DNA of 64,000 bases from Polynucleobacter sp. 80A-SIGWE (GTDB lineage: Bacteria; Pseudomonadota; Gammaproteobacteria; Burkholderiales; Burkholderiaceae): the NCBI RefSeq assembly GCF_018882295.1, contig NZ_JACVOR010000002.1, forward strand, positions 496,001 through 560,000. The letters run 5' to 3'. Each line of letters starts with the position of its first letter. Position 1 is the stretch's first letter. The translations under genes and the position numbers were made by a program. Below are positions 54,117-61,150 of the stretch, piece after piece. The notes beneath the pieces were generated by a model that saw only the letters and a list, made by a program, of their open reading frames with translations, searched no databases and was not told the origin of the DNA.

Positions 54117-54614
54117 ATGGCACTTATCGCACTTCCACAAAGCTCCTCAGAAAGCACTCTGACCCAGGCCCCACAGGCCTTGGCAGCCAATGGCGCCTAT
54201 GAGTTCAAGCTTCTGAGTCACCGCATTTCAGCGGGATTTCCGAGCCCAGCAGCGGATTATGCGGAGGAAGGTCTCGATTTAAACCACTATTTAGTCCAAA
54301 ACAAGCCGGCTACCTTCATGTTCACCGTCAAGGGTGATTCGATGATGGGCGCTGGTATTTGTGACGGCGACAAGGTGGTTGTCGATAAAGCCCTCAAGCC
54401 AAAACATAAAGACATCGTGGTTGCCGTAGTGGATGACGAGTACACCATCAAGCGCCTCTATCAATTGCGCGGCAAAACTGAACTCCAGCCAGAGAACCCA
54501 AATTACGAGCCCATTACCTTTAACGAGAACAGCGAACTTCAAATCTGGGGTGTGGTCGTTGGGGTAGTGCGCAAGTACAGTCACGCCAGCAGCAGAAACG
54601 GGAGGTCCGCATGA
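54117..54614 (+). CDS. umuD: UmuD-type S24 autoprotease subunit
   Basis: A 165-residue LexA-like protease domain. Self-cleavage is expected at Ala39-Gly40 ([13 protein letters not shown]), with nucleophile Ser75 ([10 protein letters not shown]) and Lys112 (EYTIKRL), the 37-residue Ser-Lys spacing of UmuD. N-terminally about 20 residues longer than E. coli UmuD (139), before the conserved GFPSPAADY. After RecA-stimulated cleavage it activates UmuC as DNA polymerase V. The -10 hexamer ends only seven bases before the ATG, implying an almost leaderless mRNA. The ATGA overlap with umuC shows coupling. Confidence 0.95.
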
Positions 54615-55912
54615 ACCAAGCTGGCCAAACCAATCAACTCTTTGCACTCGTAGATGTGAACAACTTCTACGTATCATGCGAGCGCGTATTTGCTCCTAAG
54701 CTAGAAGATGTGCCAATGGTGGTTCTATCCAATAATGATGGTTGCGCAGTAGCGCGTAGTGCTGAAGTTAAAGCGCTGGGCGTGAAGATGGGTACACCCT
54801 GGTTTCAGATGAAAGATCTGGCTAAGCAACATGGCATCCAAGCTTATTCCTCAAACTACACCTTGTATGGCGATATGAGCGGCAGGGTAGTAGAAGTCTT
54901 AAGAAAGTTCACACCCAATCTCGAGGTCTACAGTATTGATGAGAGCTTTCTGCAAATCGAGACCGTACTCAAGCAATATGCTGACCCAACTAGCTTAGGT
55001 CAAATCATTAAGCAAGACGTTAAAGACACGACAGGCTTGCCTGTATGTGTTGGTATTGGCGCTAGCAAGACGCTCGCTAAGTTAGCTAATCACTTAGCCA
55101 AAAAGAATCCCCAGTTTGCTGGCGTATGTGACATTAGCTCCATGTCCAAAGAAGCGCTCTATCAATGGATGGCAGAGACAGCGGTAGGTGAGGTGTGGGG
55201 TATTGGTGGCAAGACTGCCAAGAAACTCAAAGAGCTCAAGATCAATAGCGTATTTGATCTGGTGCAAATATCACCACAAGCGATGCGTCAACAGTTTGGC
55301 GTTGTGGTTGAGCGTATTTGCTACGAGTTGCGCGGCGTATCTTGCCTGCAACTCGAAGAAGTTGCTCCAGCTAAACAACAAATTATTTCTTCGAGAAGTT
55401 TTGGTAAGCCAGTGACCTCCATGGAAGAGTTGGCTGAGTCTGTTGCCACCCATGCTGCAAGAGGTGCCGAGAAACTCAGAAGCCAAAAGTCAGTCACGGG
55501 CGCACTCACTATTTTTGTGCAAACCAACCCCCATAAGCCGTTTGAGCCACAACACCATCAAAGCATCACAGTGGTTCTGAGCGATTCTAGTGATAACACC
55601 TTAACGCTCACAAGTGCTGCATTAAAAGGGCTAAAGCAAATCTACAAGACCGGCTTTAAGTACAAAAAAGCAGGCGTCATTCTTAATCTCTTGGCTGATA
55701 AACCCACCATGCAGCAATCATTATTTGATGACATGGAGGTCAAAGGTAAATCCGCCGGTCTCATGAAAGCCATGGACTCGATCAATACCCGTTTTGGTAA
55801 CGCTGCCATCAAAACTGCCGCATCTGGAACCAAGCAAGACTGGCAAATGAGATCAGGCAATAGATCACCGAACTACACCACGCAGTGGGATGAATTACCC
55901 GTAGCACGATAA
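54611..55912 (+). CDS. umuC: Y-family DNA polymerase V catalytic subunit
   Basis: The 433-residue translesion polymerase begins [19 protein letters not shown], with the catalytic acidic residues also in [48 protein letters not shown] and the little-finger domain with [17 protein letters not shown] follow. The protein should do error-prone bypass in the SOS response. Co-transcribed from the LexA-boxed promoter. Confidence 0.96.
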
Positions 55913-56894: not shown

Positions 56895-57158
56895 CTATTG
56901 TGCCTTGAGTTTGATTTGCGCCTGCCAAAGATCATATTTGGATTGCATTTCAATCCATAGCTGAGGCCCATTACTTAAAAAGGTACCCAGCTTTTGCGCA
57001 AACTCTGGCGTGACAGCGCTTTTTTCGGTAAGAACAGCATTTAATGTTTCTCTAGTTACACCAAGATGCTCGGATAGCTCGGCAATAGAAGTTCCTAGGG
57101 TAGGCAATACATCCTCTCTCAGAATAGCGCCAGGGTGGGTAGGGGATCTTCTATTCAT
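56895..57158 (-). CDS. HigA-like XRE antitoxin family protein
   Basis: An 87-residue HTH protein: SPTHPGAILREDVLPTLGTS followed by IAELSEHLGVTRETLNAVL and GPQLWIEMQSKYDLWQA. This is the HigA/VapI pattern. A cognate HigB toxin of the usual type is not next to it; instead it follows a separate toxin-antitoxin pair. May be a second antitoxin or autoregulator for the operon. Confidence 0.85.
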   Translation of the reverse strand: MNRRSPTHPGAILREDVLPTLGTSIAELSEHLGVTRETLNAVLTEKSAVTPEFAQKLGTFLSNGPQLWIEMQSKYDLWQAQIKLKAQ

Positions 57159-57185
57159 AACTCTCTAAACCATCTTTAATAAAAC

Positions 57186-57473
57186 TTAAACTGCTTTCAT
57201 TTCAAACTTAATCATCTTGCCAAGTGCAGATGCAGCACTTGTTAATGTCAGCAGCGTGAGGCTAGTATCCGATTCATCAAGTAAACGATTGAGGGCTGCC
57301 CGGCTGGTATGCATTTTCTTGGCCATCAAGGTCTTGGTAAGCTTTTGCTTGATCATTTCTTGTTCAATTTGCCAGGCGATAACTCTTTTGACTGCCACCG
57401 CACTAGAGTGATCAAAAATTGATTCTTCTTTTAAGAAATCATCAAAGCTACTACCAATGTGCTTTTTCTTCAT
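57186..57473 (-). CDS. XRE-type antitoxin paired with the RelE/HigB-like toxin
   Basis: This 95-residue HTH protein has KKKHIGSSFDDFLKEESIFD at the N-terminus (likely toxin-contacting) and KLTKTLMAKKMHTSRAALNR in the DNA-binding helix-turn-helix, ending in FEMKAV. Its ATG overlaps the toxin stop by four bases, the usual coupling of a HigBA-type toxin-first operon. Confidence 0.87.
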   Translation of the reverse strand: MKKKHIGSSFDDFLKEESIFDHSSAVAVKRVIAWQIEQEMIKQKLTKTLMAKKMHTSRAALNRLLDESDTSLTLLTLTSAASALGKMIKFEMKAV

Positions 57474-57817
57474 GAGTGCCTCCTTAATTTCTTTACTCTA
57501 TCTTTTGCCAGATCTAAATCAGACTTCAGGGTTTTCTGCTGCTTTTTGATAAACCCATGAATCAATACTATTGAGCTCTTATCTAGTACAAACAACACTC
57601 TGGCGATGCTCTTGCTAAGGTTCACCCGAACCTCCCAAATACCCCCATCAAGATGCTTTACCAAGGGCATCCCTAATGGCCATCCAAATTGAATAGTCTT
57701 GATATCTTCCCCAATACGTTTCTTATCAAAAGCACTCAAGGACTTCAGCCACTCCCTAACTGGTTCATTTCCTTGTTCTGTTGCATAAAAATTAACTTCT
57801 AGGATGGGATTTCTCAT
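57470..57817 (-). CDS. RelE/HigB-like type II toxin
   Basis: The 115-residue protein has LEVNFYATEQGNEPVREWLK, then PLGMPLVKHLDGGIWEVRVN and ARVLFVLDKSSIVLIHGFIKKQQK. These are the RelE/ParE superfamily strands of the phage Gp49-like/HigB group, probably a ribosome-dependent mRNA nuclease. ATG 57817 begins directly with the domain. An upstream ATG at 57844 would put a palindromic operator inside the coding sequence, so I reject it but cannot exclude it. First gene of the TA operon. Confidence 0.83.
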   Translation of the reverse strand: MRNPILEVNFYATEQGNEPVREWLKSLSAFDKKRIGEDIKTIQFGWPLGMPLVKHLDGGIWEVRVNLSKSIARVLFVLDKSSIVLIHGFIKKQQKTLKSDLDLAKDRVKKLRRHS

Positions 57818-57826
57818 CCAAGTAGC

Positions 57827-57842
57827 GTACCAATTATGGTAC
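57827..57842. promoter_or_regulatory. Palindromic operator before the toxin gene
   Basis: GTACCA-ATTA-TGGTAC, a perfect six-base-arm palindrome ten bases from the chosen toxin start, overlaps a -10-like CATAAT on the minus strand. An autorepressor site for the XRE antitoxin is likely. Confidence 0.6.
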
Positions 57843-57844
57843 AT

Positions 57845-58294
57845 ATCTTACATCATCTTTTACTGAAAAGATTGTAGGAAAGTACGTAATTTAGAAAATA
57901 AGAGCCTACTTGTTTAGGATGTCTAGCAAATAGATGGAAACCAATTCAGGCTATGTAACTATCAGCTGGAAGGGGTTAGACACATCGCCTTCCTACAATT
58001 AAATAGTCCCCGACTGATGTAATTCCCGCTGTTAAACGTCTACGCTAAATCTTTCAGACTACGGCGGGGATTTAGATGCGACTTTCTATTGAGTGTTCTC
58101 ACAAGCATTTAAAGCTATTCCGAATCTCTCTAGATTCAAGGGTCATGCTGGTTTTGCTGATTATTTGGATGATTTGGGGAATCTTCAGGGTTTTAAGGAT
58201 TTGGTAATAGGGCATTCTTCTGCGGTATCTACATTCGTTGCTTTATTAGCAACGAATGTTGCTAATAAAGCAACGATAAGGCAATATATGGCCT
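57845..58294. other. 450-base gap between two toxin-antitoxin-type loci
   Basis: No recognisable gene. It holds TGTAGGAA (57873) and TTCCTACA (57990) as an inverted pair around a non-coding stretch, a weak GC hairpin near 58022-58072, and the double operator at 58235-58276. Open frames within it (for example 58093-58368) have no ribosome site or family. It may be a degraded insertion or recombination joint. Confidence 0.55.
58235..58276. promoter_or_regulatory. Double-palindrome operator upstream of the MNT/HEPN pair
   Basis: TCGTTGCTTTATTAGCAAC and its exact reverse complement flank a GAAT centre, giving perfect 19-base arms. Each arm is itself an interrupted palindrome GTTGC-N7-GCAAC (58237-58253 and 58258-58274), so two equal sites start 21 bases apart, two helical turns. 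It ends 18 bases before the start of the HTH-nucleotidyltransferase gene. Best read as a two-dimer operator; a cruciform or mRNA hairpin is the alternative. Confidence 0.75.
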
Positions 58295-58924
58295 ATGACG
58301 ACGCTTACATCCATCCTCTTTGGTCAATATCGCAGTCGCGTATTGGGCCTACTTCTCTTGCATCCTGAGCAAGCTTATTACTTGCGTCAGATTGCAAGCC
58401 TAACCGGAACCACCCCAGGAACTTTGCAACGCGAAATGATTAAGCTTGAGCAAGCAGAGTTGGTGACAGTAAAAAAAATTGGCAACCAAACGCATTACCA
58501 AGCGAATCGCTCTTGTCCTATCTTCGAAGAGTTGGCGAGCATATTGAGAAAAACCAGTGGCCTAGTGGATGTTCTTCTGCAGGCCCTATTGCCCGTTGAG
58601 AATCAGATTCAATGTGCATTTGTATTCGGATCAACTGCAGGGGGTAAAGCAAGTGCAGGTAGTGATATCGACATCATGATTATTGGTGGCCTTGAGTTTT
58701 CTACTGTCGTTGCAACTCTCCACCCATATCAAGAAACACTCGGAAGAGAAATTAACCCCAAGGTCTTTACTGGTAAGGATTGGACAAAGCTCATCCAAGA
58801 TAATGGAGCCTTCATCCGTGATGTACTAGGCAAACCAAAGCTGTACATCATTGGTAATGAGCATGATCTGCTTATCAATGGAGACACACAACTTGTTAAA
58901 AAATCTCATCGGGGTAACGCTTGA
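58295..58924 (+). CDS. HTH-MNT nucleotidyltransferase (antitoxin type)
   Basis: The 209-residue protein has an N-terminal ArsR-like winged HTH (about 12-72, YLRQIASLTGTTPGTLQREM) and a minimal nucleotidyltransferase domain with VFGSTAGGKASAGSDIDIMI (Gly112-Ser113, Asp124, Asp126). In MNT/HEPN systems the MNT adenylylates or otherwise neutralises the HEPN toxin. The next gene overlaps its 3' end by 47 bases. AAGG lies 13 bases before the ATG. The HTH suggests control by the double palindrome upstream. Confidence 0.85.
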   Translation: MTTLTSILFGQYRSRVLGLLLLHPEQAYYLRQIASLTGTTPGTLQREMIKLEQAELVTVKKIGNQTHYQANRSCPIFEELASILRKTSGLVDVLLQALLPVENQIQCAFVFGSTAGGKASAGSDIDIMIIGGLEFSTVVATLHPYQETLGREINPKVFTGKDWTKLIQDNGAFIRDVLGKPKLYIIGNEHDLLINGDTQLVKKSHRGNA

Positions 58925-59315
58925 CACAATTGAGCGTGACAAACTTAGCATTCAACGTTTACTAGAGGCTTCTCAAGCCAGCTTGAAGGATGCGCAAGTC
59001 GAGGAGCTCAGCAATGAGGGGCGCTTTGATCTGGCATACAAATCGATTACTCAATCCTCAAGTGCAGCGTTACAGGCAAGTGGCTATCGAGTGCTTACCA
59101 GTAAGCCGGGGCACCATCAAACCATGATTCAAAGTTTGGTTCACACCATAGGAATAGATTCATCTACTTTGATTACCTTAGATCAACTGCGCAAACAGCG
59201 GAACGTGATTGATTATTCAGGGGATATCGTGAGCGATGCCATGTTGGGCGAAGCAATTAAACAAGCCCAAGCGCTATTGGATTGTGTAAATGCTTGGATT
59301 GCTAAAAAGGGCTGA
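58878..59315 (+). CDS. HEPN-domain protein paired with the MNT (toxin type)
   Basis: The 145-residue helical protein has GRFDLAYKSITQSSSAALQA, YRVLTSKPGHHQTMIQSLVH and LRKQRNVIDYSGD (Arg108, Asp112, Tyr113). These fit the HEPN-family protein regularly encoded behind HTH-MNT genes. The HEPN RNase motif R-x4-6-H is not obvious, so enzymatic activity is uncertain. Start chosen at ATG 58878 (METHNLLKNLIG); in-frame ATGs at 58857 and 58863 are possible. Confidence 0.8.
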   Translation: METHNLLKNLIGVTLDTIERDKLSIQRLLEASQASLKDAQVEELSNEGRFDLAYKSITQSSSAALQASGYRVLTSKPGHHQTMIQSLVHTIGIDSSTLITLDQLRKQRNVIDYSGDIVSDAMLGEAIKQAQALLDCVNAWIAKKG

Positions 59316-59342: not shown

Positions 59343-59442
59343 GGTGGACGAGCCCGACCCCCGGCACTGACAGAATTGGGTTTGGCTGCTTCGTTCCCGA
59401 CCTGACCAGGTTATCCAAACCGCCATGCGGGGAGGCCCGTCC
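59343..59442 (-). ncRNA. ffs: 4.5S signal recognition particle RNA
   Basis: Minus strand carries the conserved core GGTCAGGTCGGGAACGAAGC followed by AGCC, which is the SRP RNA domain IV apical loop and Ffh-binding asymmetric loop. The ends GGACGGGCC and GGGCTCGTCC pair to close a single long hairpin of about 100 nucleotides. It binds Ffh to target nascent membrane proteins. It is divergent from dnaX. Confidence 0.95.
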
Positions 59443-59473: not shown

Positions 59474-61150
59474 ATGACAGCATTGGCTTTAGCCCGTTCG
59501 TGGCGCCCTAAAACTTTCTCCCAATTGGTAGGACAAGACCATGTGGTTAAGGCATTAACCCATGCCTTAGACCAGGGTCGACTACACCACGCTTGGCTCT
59601 TTACAGGCACTCGCGGGGTCGGAAAGACCACAATTGCCCGAATTATGGCCAAAGCCCTCAATTGCACCGGGGAAGACGGTCAAGGTCGCATGACCTCAGA
59701 ACCTTGCGGAAAATGCCCGGCTTGCCTAGAAATCGATGCCGGTCGCTTTGTTGACTATATCGAGATGGATGCTGCAAGCAATCGCGGGGTAGACGATATT
59801 GCCGCTCTACTAGAGAAGGCAGCCTACGCTCCAAGTAATGCACGTTACAAGGTCTACATGATTGACGAGGTGCACATGCTCACCAATCATGCCTTTAATG
59901 CCATGCTCAAGACGCTCGAAGAGCCGCCTGAACATGTGAAGTTCATACTTGCAACTACTGATCCCCAAAAGATCCCGGTCACTATTCTGTCCCGCTGCTT
60001 GCAGTTCAATCTCAAGCAAATGCCAGTACCGCTCATCGTTGAACATTTAGAAAAAGTCCTCGCCGCAGAAAAAGTCGATTGCGAAACCAATGCACTCCGT
60101 GTTTTAGCTAAAGCAGCCCAAGGCTCCATGCGTGATGCCTTATCACTGACTGATCAAGCCATTGCATACGCCGCAGGCAAAGTATCTGAAGAAGCAGTGC
60201 GCGGCATGCTTGGCACATTGGATGATGCTTATCTCATTCGCATTCTGGATGCCTTAATTGCAAAAGATGGTGCGACATTGCTAGCTATCTCTAATGAGAT
60301 GGGTGAGCGCAGTATGTCTTTCTCATTAGCACTTGCTGATCTATCCAGCCTCATTCAGAAAATCGCTGCAGCACAAATCGTTCCAGAATCTGTTTTGGAA
60401 GATTGGCCTGAAGCGGCAGAGATTCGTCGCTTGGCTGGTGCGCTTACAAAAGAAGAGGCACAACTCTTCTACCAAATTAGCATTACTAGTCGTCCAGATT
60501 TATCGCTAGCTCCAGATGAACAAACCGGCTTTGCCATGACGCTCCTGCGCATGCTAGCCTTTCGTCCTGGAAATGAAACTCCAGGCAGAGCAGGGAACTC
60601 CGCACCGCCAGTAGCAAGCGCGCCAAGACCAGCGGCACCAGCAAATCAAACAGCTGCTCCAGTTAGATCTTCAGCGCCTGCAGCATCTGCTCCAGCACCT
60701 ATGGCGGCTAGGCCTACCGCTTCAGCGCCTCCAGCTTCTGCACCAGCGGCCACTGCATCTGCAGCCAATCGTCCAGACTGGCATGCTTTGATGCGTCAGT
60801 TGCCGGTTAAAGGTTTGGTTCAGCAGTTAGCGTTTCAGACAGAGTTGCAAGATTGGGAAGATTCACCAGCAGGCGTGCGCGCTACGGTTGTGACGCCAAT
60901 GCCGCAACTAGCTTCCGAAGCTTCTGTTGGTCGTCTCGCTGATGCATTAAGTGCGCACTTTGGCAAGCCGATCAAAGTATTAATTGAGAAGGGTGAAGTA
61001 GAAGGCAAGACAGTTGCTAAAGTCGATGCGCAGATTCATCAAGAGAAAAGACAAAACGCAGAGCAGATGATTGCTCAAGATCCATTTATTCAGCAATTAG
61101 AAAAAGAGTTTGGAGCCAAAGTAGTTGGTGGCTCTGTTAAACCTCTTTGA
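59474..61150 (+). CDS. dnaX: DNA polymerase III subunit gamma/tau
   Basis: A 558-residue clamp-loader ATPase: RPKTFSQLVGQDHVVKALTH, Walker A GTRGVGKTTIARIM, zinc cysteines in CTGED...CGKCPAC, DEVHMLTNHAFNAML and SRCLQFNLKQ. A long Ala/Pro-rich linker (about 375-435) leads to a tau-type C-terminal domain (HALMRQLPVKGLVQQLAFQT). No poly-A slippery site was seen, so separate gamma is not predicted by that route. First gene of dnaX-ybaB-recR. Confidence 0.96.
   Translation: MTALALARSWRPKTFSQLVGQDHVVKALTHALDQGRLHHAWLFTGTRGVGKTTIARIMAKALNCTGEDGQGRMTSEPCGKCPACLEIDAGRFVDYIEMDAASNRGVDDIAALLEKAAYAPSNARYKVYMIDEVHMLTNHAFNAMLKTLEEPPEHVKFILATTDPQKIPVTILSRCLQFNLKQMPVPLIVEHLEKVLAAEKVDCETNALRVLAKAAQGSMRDALSLTDQAIAYAAGKVSEEAVRGMLGTLDDAYLIRILDALIAKDGATLLAISNEMGERSMSFSLALADLSSLIQKIAAAQIVPESVLEDWPEAAEIRRLAGALTKEEAQLFYQISITSRPDLSLAPDEQTGFAMTLLRMLAFRPGNETPGRAGNSAPPVASAPRPAAPANQTAAPVRSSAPAASAPAPMAARPTASAPPASAPAATASAANRPDWHALMRQLPVKGLVQQLAFQTELQDWEDSPAGVRATVVTPMPQLASEASVGRLADALSAHFGKPIKVLIEKGEVEGKTVAKVDAQIHQEKRQNAEQMIAQDPFIQQLEKEFGAKVVGGSVKPL

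Follow-up and report, generated by a model that had tools for sequence, protein, structure and literature searches.

The MNT-HEPN operon SO_3165/SO_3166 of Shewanella oneidensis, in which the MNT gene comes first, has two palindromes near the -10 and -35 regions of its promoter, and its stand-alone MNT, SO_3165, is reported to bind this promoter in electrophoretic mobility shift assays and to repress it mildly (1.6-fold) (PMC4621449). Here we describe a related arrangement in a 64,000-nt stretch of Polynucleobacter sp. 80A-SIGWE DNA (hereafter the window, whose numbering is used throughout), where a perfect inverted repeat at 58235-58276 precedes a gene for a winged helix-turn-helix (wHTH)-MNT fusion protein and its HEPN partner. 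The order of the genes and the presence of two promoter palindromes are common to both operons. As described in the passages drawn on here, SO_3165 differs in having no predicted DNA-binding domain and dissimilar palindromes, whereas in the window a wHTH is part of the MNT protein and the two palindromes, at a fixed 21-bp spacing, have common half-sites; SO_3166 has the RX4-6H motif, which the HEPN partner in the window lacks (PMC4621449).

Other described systems share parts of this design; the comparisons follow selected passages of the papers cited. MntA/HepT type VII toxin-antitoxin systems likewise combine a GSX10DXD MNT and a HEPN partner in one operon, but are described without a wHTH and with RX4HXY in the HEPN protein (PMC7641770, PMC11586414). 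In AbiE type IV systems (AbiEi/Rv2827c), inverted repeats in the promoter let the antitoxin autoregulate a nucleotidyltransferase operon, Rv2827c having four such repeats; there, however, the nucleotidyltransferase is the toxin, the antitoxin is a separate protein, and AbiEi is described as binding in monomeric form to 23-bp repeats separated by 3 bp (PMC7319586). The window protein unites wHTH and nucleotidyltransferase, and its partner is of the HEPN kind. The half-site and spacer design recalls HipBA of E. coli, where HipB dimers bind cooperatively to four TATCC-N8-GGATA sites in their own promoter, although HipB is an Xre/Cro-type HTH protein, HipA is a kinase and neither is related to the wHTH-MNT/HEPN proteins (PMC3376134, PMC3920265). 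YefM-YoeB and RelBE operators also place paired palindromes over the promoter and show spacing-sensitive cooperative binding, but YefM needs 12 bp from center to center, the proteins have other folds, and those operators are reported to share a core motif where the ones described here have subfamily-specific half-sites (PMC3920265).

MNT-HEPN pairs were described by Makarova et al. (2009) as having no evident transcription regulator, and a DNA-binding component acting in trans was suggested (PMC2701414). The pair to which the window locus belongs, PDC-M05, is listed as an unconfirmed defense candidate, in passages that contain nothing on an operator (PMC12988326), and full-text searches of open-license papers brought up none that deals with an operator of such wHTH-MNT/HEPN modules. 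Toxin-antitoxin promoters with paired palindromes are already known; new here is the family-wide operator design of the wHTH-MNT branch.

Predicted double operator in front of the wHTH-MNT gene

The element and the genes behind it are as follows.

58235-58276, no strand: whole double operator, a 19-bp perfect inverted repeat with a 4-bp loop (repeat search)
58237-58253, no strand: predicted operator site 1, GTTGC-N7-GCAAC with the middle TTTATTA (exact match; doublet conserved in homologues)
58258-58274, no strand: predicted operator site 2, GTTGC-N7-GCAAC with the middle TAATAAA, 21 bp from site 1 (exact match; doublet conserved in homologues)
58295-58924, plus strand: wHTH-MNT protein of 209 aa, PDC-M05A, predicted autorepressor and nucleotidyltransferase with GSx10DxD (open reading frame, family matches, alignment, model)
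58878-59315, plus strand: HEPN partner, PDC-M05B, with an RNxxDY motif (open reading frame and family match; predicted start codon)

The arms of the repeat, 58235-58253 and 58258-58276, are 19 nt long and 100% complementary, with 4 nt between them. Site 1 (GTTGCTTTATTAGCAAC) and site 2 (GTTGCTAATAAAGCAAC) start 21 bp apart, and the open reading frame (ORF) of the MNT protein starts at 58295, 20 bp past site 2. A first-pass annotation, made from the sequence alone, had noted the perfect 19-base repeat and a GTTGC-N7-GCAAC in each arm at 21-bp spacing, both of which are borne out, and had called the sites identical; this holds for their half-sites, but the N7 middles differ, each being the reverse complement of the other rather than the same sequence on one strand.

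Exact GTTGC-N7-GCAAC occurs twice in the window against 0.10 expected, nowhere else in it, and none of 100 shuffled windows contained two sites. The repeat is also the longest perfect inverted repeat in the 64 kb (loop ≤10), the runner-up having 12-bp arms. With the relaxed pattern G..GC-N7-GC..C, 40 sites were found in the window, and only the GTTGC-N7-GCAAC pair had the 21-bp spacing. Elsewhere in the genome (2.0 Mb), the exact single site is present at six further places, compared with five for a control pattern read backwards; none of the six lies 21 bp from another, and as a pair of exact sites the doublet is unique in this genome. Four of these six were inspected: the 3′ end of a 497-aa ORF extends into one, and another lies in a region without an ORF of at least 80 aa.

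Conservation of the doublet in near and distant homologues

Near homologues, from beta- and gammaproteobacteria, were collected in two sets. Set 1 came from a protein search of 398 family genomes, 66 of which had a match and from which 30 loci were read; set 2 came from a genome collection with 204 confirmed relatives, of which 80 were kept. After removal of seven duplicates of the same gene and of L071, with upstream DNA that was too short, 102 of the 110 loci could be assessed. A doublet was defined as two G..GC-N7-GC..C sites with at most one mismatch per site over the six fixed positions, spaced by exactly 21 bp.

In set 1, 28 of 30 upstream regions contained two sites spaced by 21 bp. Overall, 95 of the 102 loci had a doublet at exactly 21 bp, free of mismatches in 68, compared with a mean of 0.4 and a maximum of 2 in 20 dinucleotide-shuffled sets and with 0 in the coding stretch of the same genes; the expectation that the same doublet would precede homologous MNT genes thus held. 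In the mismatch-free search, the next commonest distance after 21 bp was found in just two loci. Every named genus (20 of 20) among the 80 set-2 loci has at least one doublet.

Two variations on this arrangement were seen. In some Burkholderiaceae loci (L010, L011, L012, L014, L016, L017, L018, L019, L022, L024 and L025), a second 21-bp doublet is found 60-71 bp farther upstream than the proximal one, which places it about 100-132 bp ahead of the first matched residue; it may serve another promoter or a loop. In a group rich in Methylophilaceae, with a few others (L062, L066, L073, L101, L104 and relatives), site 2 is asymmetric, its right half being GGAAAC rather than GCTAC.

Distant homologues comprised 53 loci from relatives at 27-45% identity in the family genomes, distant profile hits, and plasmid and phage records; L147, L204, L208 and L210 were dropped as duplicates or because they belong to the main set, and also left unused were L137, L142 and L149-L184 (fragments, weak or repeated hits). 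A score for two like palindromes reached at least 16 in 43 of the 53, at a lag of 21 in 35 and of 20 in 8, so that the paired sites predicted before MNT genes extend to distant relatives with other half-sites. None of 105 coding controls reached this score at lag 20 or 21, and for an earlier subset of 32 distant loci none of 320 shuffles did so at lag 21. Palindromes of the following types were found.

ACCC-type: L115, L124, L138, L146, L185
GCTA-type: L117-L123, L140
TCCC-type, often as two doublets: L125, L127-L131, L193
TACC-type: L126, L197, L201, L207
GTTGT half-site: L196
GATGT or TGCA-type at 20 bp: L133, L135, L202, L203, L205

At the level of sequence, the comparison shows subfamilies that differ in half-site but retain one architecture. 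A distant subfamily with ..GNV.RWL.. helices has 20-bp spacing in arrays of three or four sites (L133, L135, L194, L198, L202, L203 and L205), and in L126, L127 and relatives two doublets lie about 27 bp apart. In a viral collection, the pattern matched 21 times and no relative was present; in phage records, one weak relative was found, and it had no doublet.

The likeness of sites 1 and 2 to each other could suggest that the pair arose by chance or by local duplication of one palindrome. The absence of two exact sites from all shuffled windows and the recurrence of the doublet in both near and distant homologues refute this explanation, to which we give a vanishingly small probability.

Half-site sequence and predicted recognition helix

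The ORF at 58295-58924 matches Polbeta (2.2e-07) and NTP_transf_2 (4.9e-05) in Pfam, with HTH matches that are all below their cut-offs. In PADLOC, it matches PDC-M05A (PDLC04368, 4.9e-78) and the next ORF matches PDC-M05B (PDLC04379, 7.8e-60), so that both models of the PDC-M05 pair are matched by adjacent, overlapping ORFs. Against the NCBIfam MntA_antitoxin equivalog it scores 24.7 bits, below the cut-off of 60, and AbiEi or AbiEii families, which would indicate AbiE type IV membership (an AbiEii/DUF1814 nucleotidyltransferase toxin with a separate AbiEi antitoxin), are absent among the matches listed for either protein in Pfam, NCBIfam and PADLOC. An AlphaFold2 model built with 40 homologues (mean predicted local distance difference test score, pLDDT, 80.4) has a helix at residues 41-53 followed by a beta wing. 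Residues 1-87 of the model match ArsR/MarR regulators (Z up to 10.7; for example, 3cuo, Z 10.7, and 4gxo, Z 10.4), and residues 83-187 match the MNT antitoxin 8xeo (Z 9.9). The MNT active-site motif GSX10DXD is present, with G112, S113, D124 and D126 invariant in 60 aligned proteins. The part of the gene that corresponds to the modeled helix is given below.

58415-58453, plus strand: codons of the predicted recognition helix, residues 41-53, ..PGTLQREMIKL.. (structure model; correlation with operator bases)

The helix residue that follows GTL (residue 45) tracks base 3 of the operator half-site. It is His in 73 of 100 proteins; 70 of these have A-type half-sites (GTAGC/GAAGC) and the other three GTTTC halves. 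The remaining 27 proteins have a different residue, and every one of them has T-type half-sites such as GTTGC or GCTGC. From these sequences, we hypothesize that recognition helix and half-site have co-evolved.

In all six genomes in which two or more copies were read, the copies carry different operators.

G114: L020 GTAGC, L123 GCTAG, L197 TACC
G288: L022, L193
G106: L023, L194
G308: L118, L195
G265: L129, L196
G155: L128, L198

These genomes bear on the possibility that the doublet is the target of some other regulator, such as a global factor or an ArsR/MarR-type protein of the host. Palindromes of this kind could be used by any dimeric wHTH protein, but the half-site varies with the wHTH-MNT subfamily and not with the host, and a host regulator would not explain doublets that differ between copies in one genome. 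Near-identical operators also accompany the gene across 20 genera, and the exact doublet has no second instance in the Polynucleobacter genome. We consider regulation by another protein highly improbable.

Promoter geometry

In the 96 main-family doublets, TTGACA-like hexamers (at least 5/6) fall at a single offset, 9 bp before site 1, in 15, compared with a maximum of 6 at any offset in 200 shuffles. TATAAT-likeness peaks at doublet position 15 (mean 4.06/6; next highest 3.0). The geometry applies to these doublets, the -10 offset being less uniform in the distant families. The 17-bp spacer between the -35-like and -10-like hexamers is, in the main family, taken up by site 1, whose right half-site GCTAC enters the -10; site 2 lies over the start region. 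At least two like palindromes over the operon promoter are therefore a conserved feature, with weak promoter hexamers in the window itself, where the family positions are these.

58228-58233, plus strand: family -35 position, 9 bp before site 1; here TCTACA, 4/6 to TTGACA, a weak predicted hexamer (family offset)
58251-58256, plus strand: family -10 position, doublet positions 15-20; here AACGAA, a poor -10 (family offset)

Of the 96 doublets, 82 have GTAGC or GAAGC as the right half of site 1, read towards the center; GTTGC stands there only in the clade of the window, L005, L035 and L036. Where it is GTTGC, the -10 position reads AACGAA, AACAAA or AACTAA. The perfect repeat of the window appears to reflect an operator sharpened locally to the detriment of the -10: in its clade, the right half of site 1 would have changed from GCTAC to GCAAC, making all four half-sites alike, at the apparent cost of the -10 hexamer.

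An in-frame ATG lies within site 2 in 25 of the 96 loci (for example, L087, L090 and L102) and is probably the start codon. Because this ATG falls inside site 2, the mRNAs of these loci may be nearly leaderless, and they are likely translated without a Shine-Dalgarno sequence.

These features also bear on whether the element acts as a structure, that is, as a DNA cruciform or as a hairpin in the mRNA leader that affects attenuation, RNA stability or translation. The first-pass annotation had noted that the repeat can fold in this way. The window element does fold well as RNA (-36.3 kcal/mol, z -7.0 against shuffled sequence), and across the family N7 pairing between the two sites is slightly above that of reshuffled middles (0.426 versus 0.390; 19 of 1000 as high). 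However, all 17 cross-site pairs are possible in the window only, 1 of 96 doublets, while most doublets share 9-14 of 17, a level explained by palindromic half-sites alone (half-site pairing within a site is 0.85). The conserved features are the half-sites and the 21-bp spacing, as for a pair of palindromes rather than a hairpin; the ATG inside site 2, if it is the start, leaves little leader for a hairpin; and no run of T follows the window hairpin. Rfam has no match at 58235-58276, its sole match in the window being a signal recognition particle (SRP) RNA. A cruciform or RNA hairpin as the conserved feature was rejected, the perfect repeat being confined to that one doublet, and we regard a structural role for the element as very unlikely.

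Proposed autorepression by the wHTH-MNT protein

Very probably, 58235-58276 is the operator through which the wHTH-MNT protein represses its own operon; we infer binding and cooperativity from the sequence comparisons. In the mechanism that we favor, one dimer of the downstream protein would bind each palindrome through its wHTH, and two dimers on the same face of the DNA, two helical turns apart, would touch and help each other. Bound dimers would exclude RNA polymerase from the promoter, so that excess wHTH-MNT limits its own operon, and the pair would be made only when free wHTH-MNT drops, for instance, because the HEPN partner sequesters or occupies it. Paired operator sites of the HTH-MNT protein, as proposed in the earlier description of a cooperative autoregulatory switch, are supported by the homologues; the cooperative part of that proposal is an inference from site spacing.

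Spacing by itself does not prove contact between dimers. The site could serve the module with two dimers binding independently, or be bound chiefly by a wHTH-MNT:HEPN complex, and in the related AbiE system the antitoxin Rv2827c is described as binding four inverted repeats with negative co-operativity (PMC7319586). The 21-bp spacing is nevertheless constant over very different half-sites; unless the dimers touch or the promoter imposes a strict constraint, this has no easy explanation. Independent binding, or binding chiefly by the complex, therefore seems somewhat unlikely to us.

Several observations weigh against autorepression through a conserved doublet. A consensus scan at the window locus found no sigma-70-like promoter (0 found, 3.2 expected), and its -10 position is degenerate. 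Seven of the 102 near homologues lack a doublet as defined, namely L033 and L034, which encode distant proteins, and L041, L052, L055, L068 and L079, which have degenerate sites. As homologues are related by descent, the 95 doublet-bearing loci do not amount to 95 independent observations. Among the distant loci, the score threshold of 16 was fixed after the repeats had first been seen, and the controls consequently weigh more than the count; 10 of the 53 fall short, 21 still being the best or tied-best lag in five of them, and no doublet was seen in the actinobacterial plasmid copy L186 or the phage-record copy L187. Finally, a tree of the MNT part shows just two to three changes of the helix and operator traits, with one to two independent pairs, and since descent alone could produce the match, the correlation of helix and operator is not counted as independent evidence.

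A broader reading would join these results. The wHTH-MNT (PDC-M05A) family may have an evolvable operator code, in which the architecture is frozen (paired palindromes two turns apart, with site 1 in the -35/-10 spacer), recognition helix and half-site diversify together, and modules coexist in one genome without cross-repression. Repression may in addition be wired to the partner, with HEPN or the nucleotidylated state switching the grip on DNA, which would make the operon a sensor, for example, of phage attack, rather than a control of level only. We put this forward tentatively, as a possibility that we do not expect to hold in full.

In this branch, the MNT carries the regulator as a fused domain, and the operator can be read from sequence as a fixed geometry with subfamily-specific half-sites. 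Autoregulation in a widespread candidate defense family thereby becomes directly testable, and the six multi-copy genomes offer ready-made operator/repressor pairs of different specificity in one host. The promoter signature could help to find and classify wHTH-MNT/HEPN modules. How the pair is switched on would become clear if HEPN or nucleotidylation proved to change DNA binding at the doublet.

HEPN partner

The likely start of the HEPN partner is the ATG at 58878, within the MNT gene, and its ORF ends at 59315. PF05168 matches 15 of 33 members of the partner family (best 4.8e-6), which identifies a HEPN domain in the family, the copy in the window being itself unmatched. The model of the partner is helical and confident (pLDDT 92.3); a Foldseek search with it gave weak matches, none with E ≤0.001, and a profile search of PDB sequences returned nothing convincing. 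In the RNxxDY motif, Tyr lies five residues past Arg, and both residues are present in 109 of 128 rows of an alignment in which ORFs were chosen automatically and some wrong frames are included. The canonical RX4HXY or RX4-6H motif was not found, His at R+5 to R+7 occurring in only 1 of the 128 rows. It is plausible, as the first-pass annotation had it, that wHTH-MNT and HEPN form a toxin-antitoxin pair; with a tyrosine instead of the canonical RX4-6H histidine, however, the HEPN partner is no more than a putative RNase toxin.

Neighboring genes

Beside the MNT/HEPN pair, a small toxin-antitoxin cluster occupies 56895-57844 on the minus strand. Its genes and other features of the window are listed below.

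57470-57844, minus strand: Gp49/RelE-like toxin gene (PF05973, 2.3e-21)
57186-57473, minus strand: HTH partner of the Gp49/RelE-like toxin (ORF)
56895-57158, minus strand: HigA-family antitoxin gene, without an obvious toxin of its own (TIGR02607, 3.2e-26)
59344-59441, minus strand: bacterial small SRP RNA, flanked by the HEPN gene and the ORF at 59474-61150 (RF00169, 71.3 bits)
54611-55912: UmuC-type error-prone polymerase gene (NF002955, 447.7 bits, cut-off 431)

The ORF at 59474-61150, downstream of the SRP RNA, looks like dnaX.
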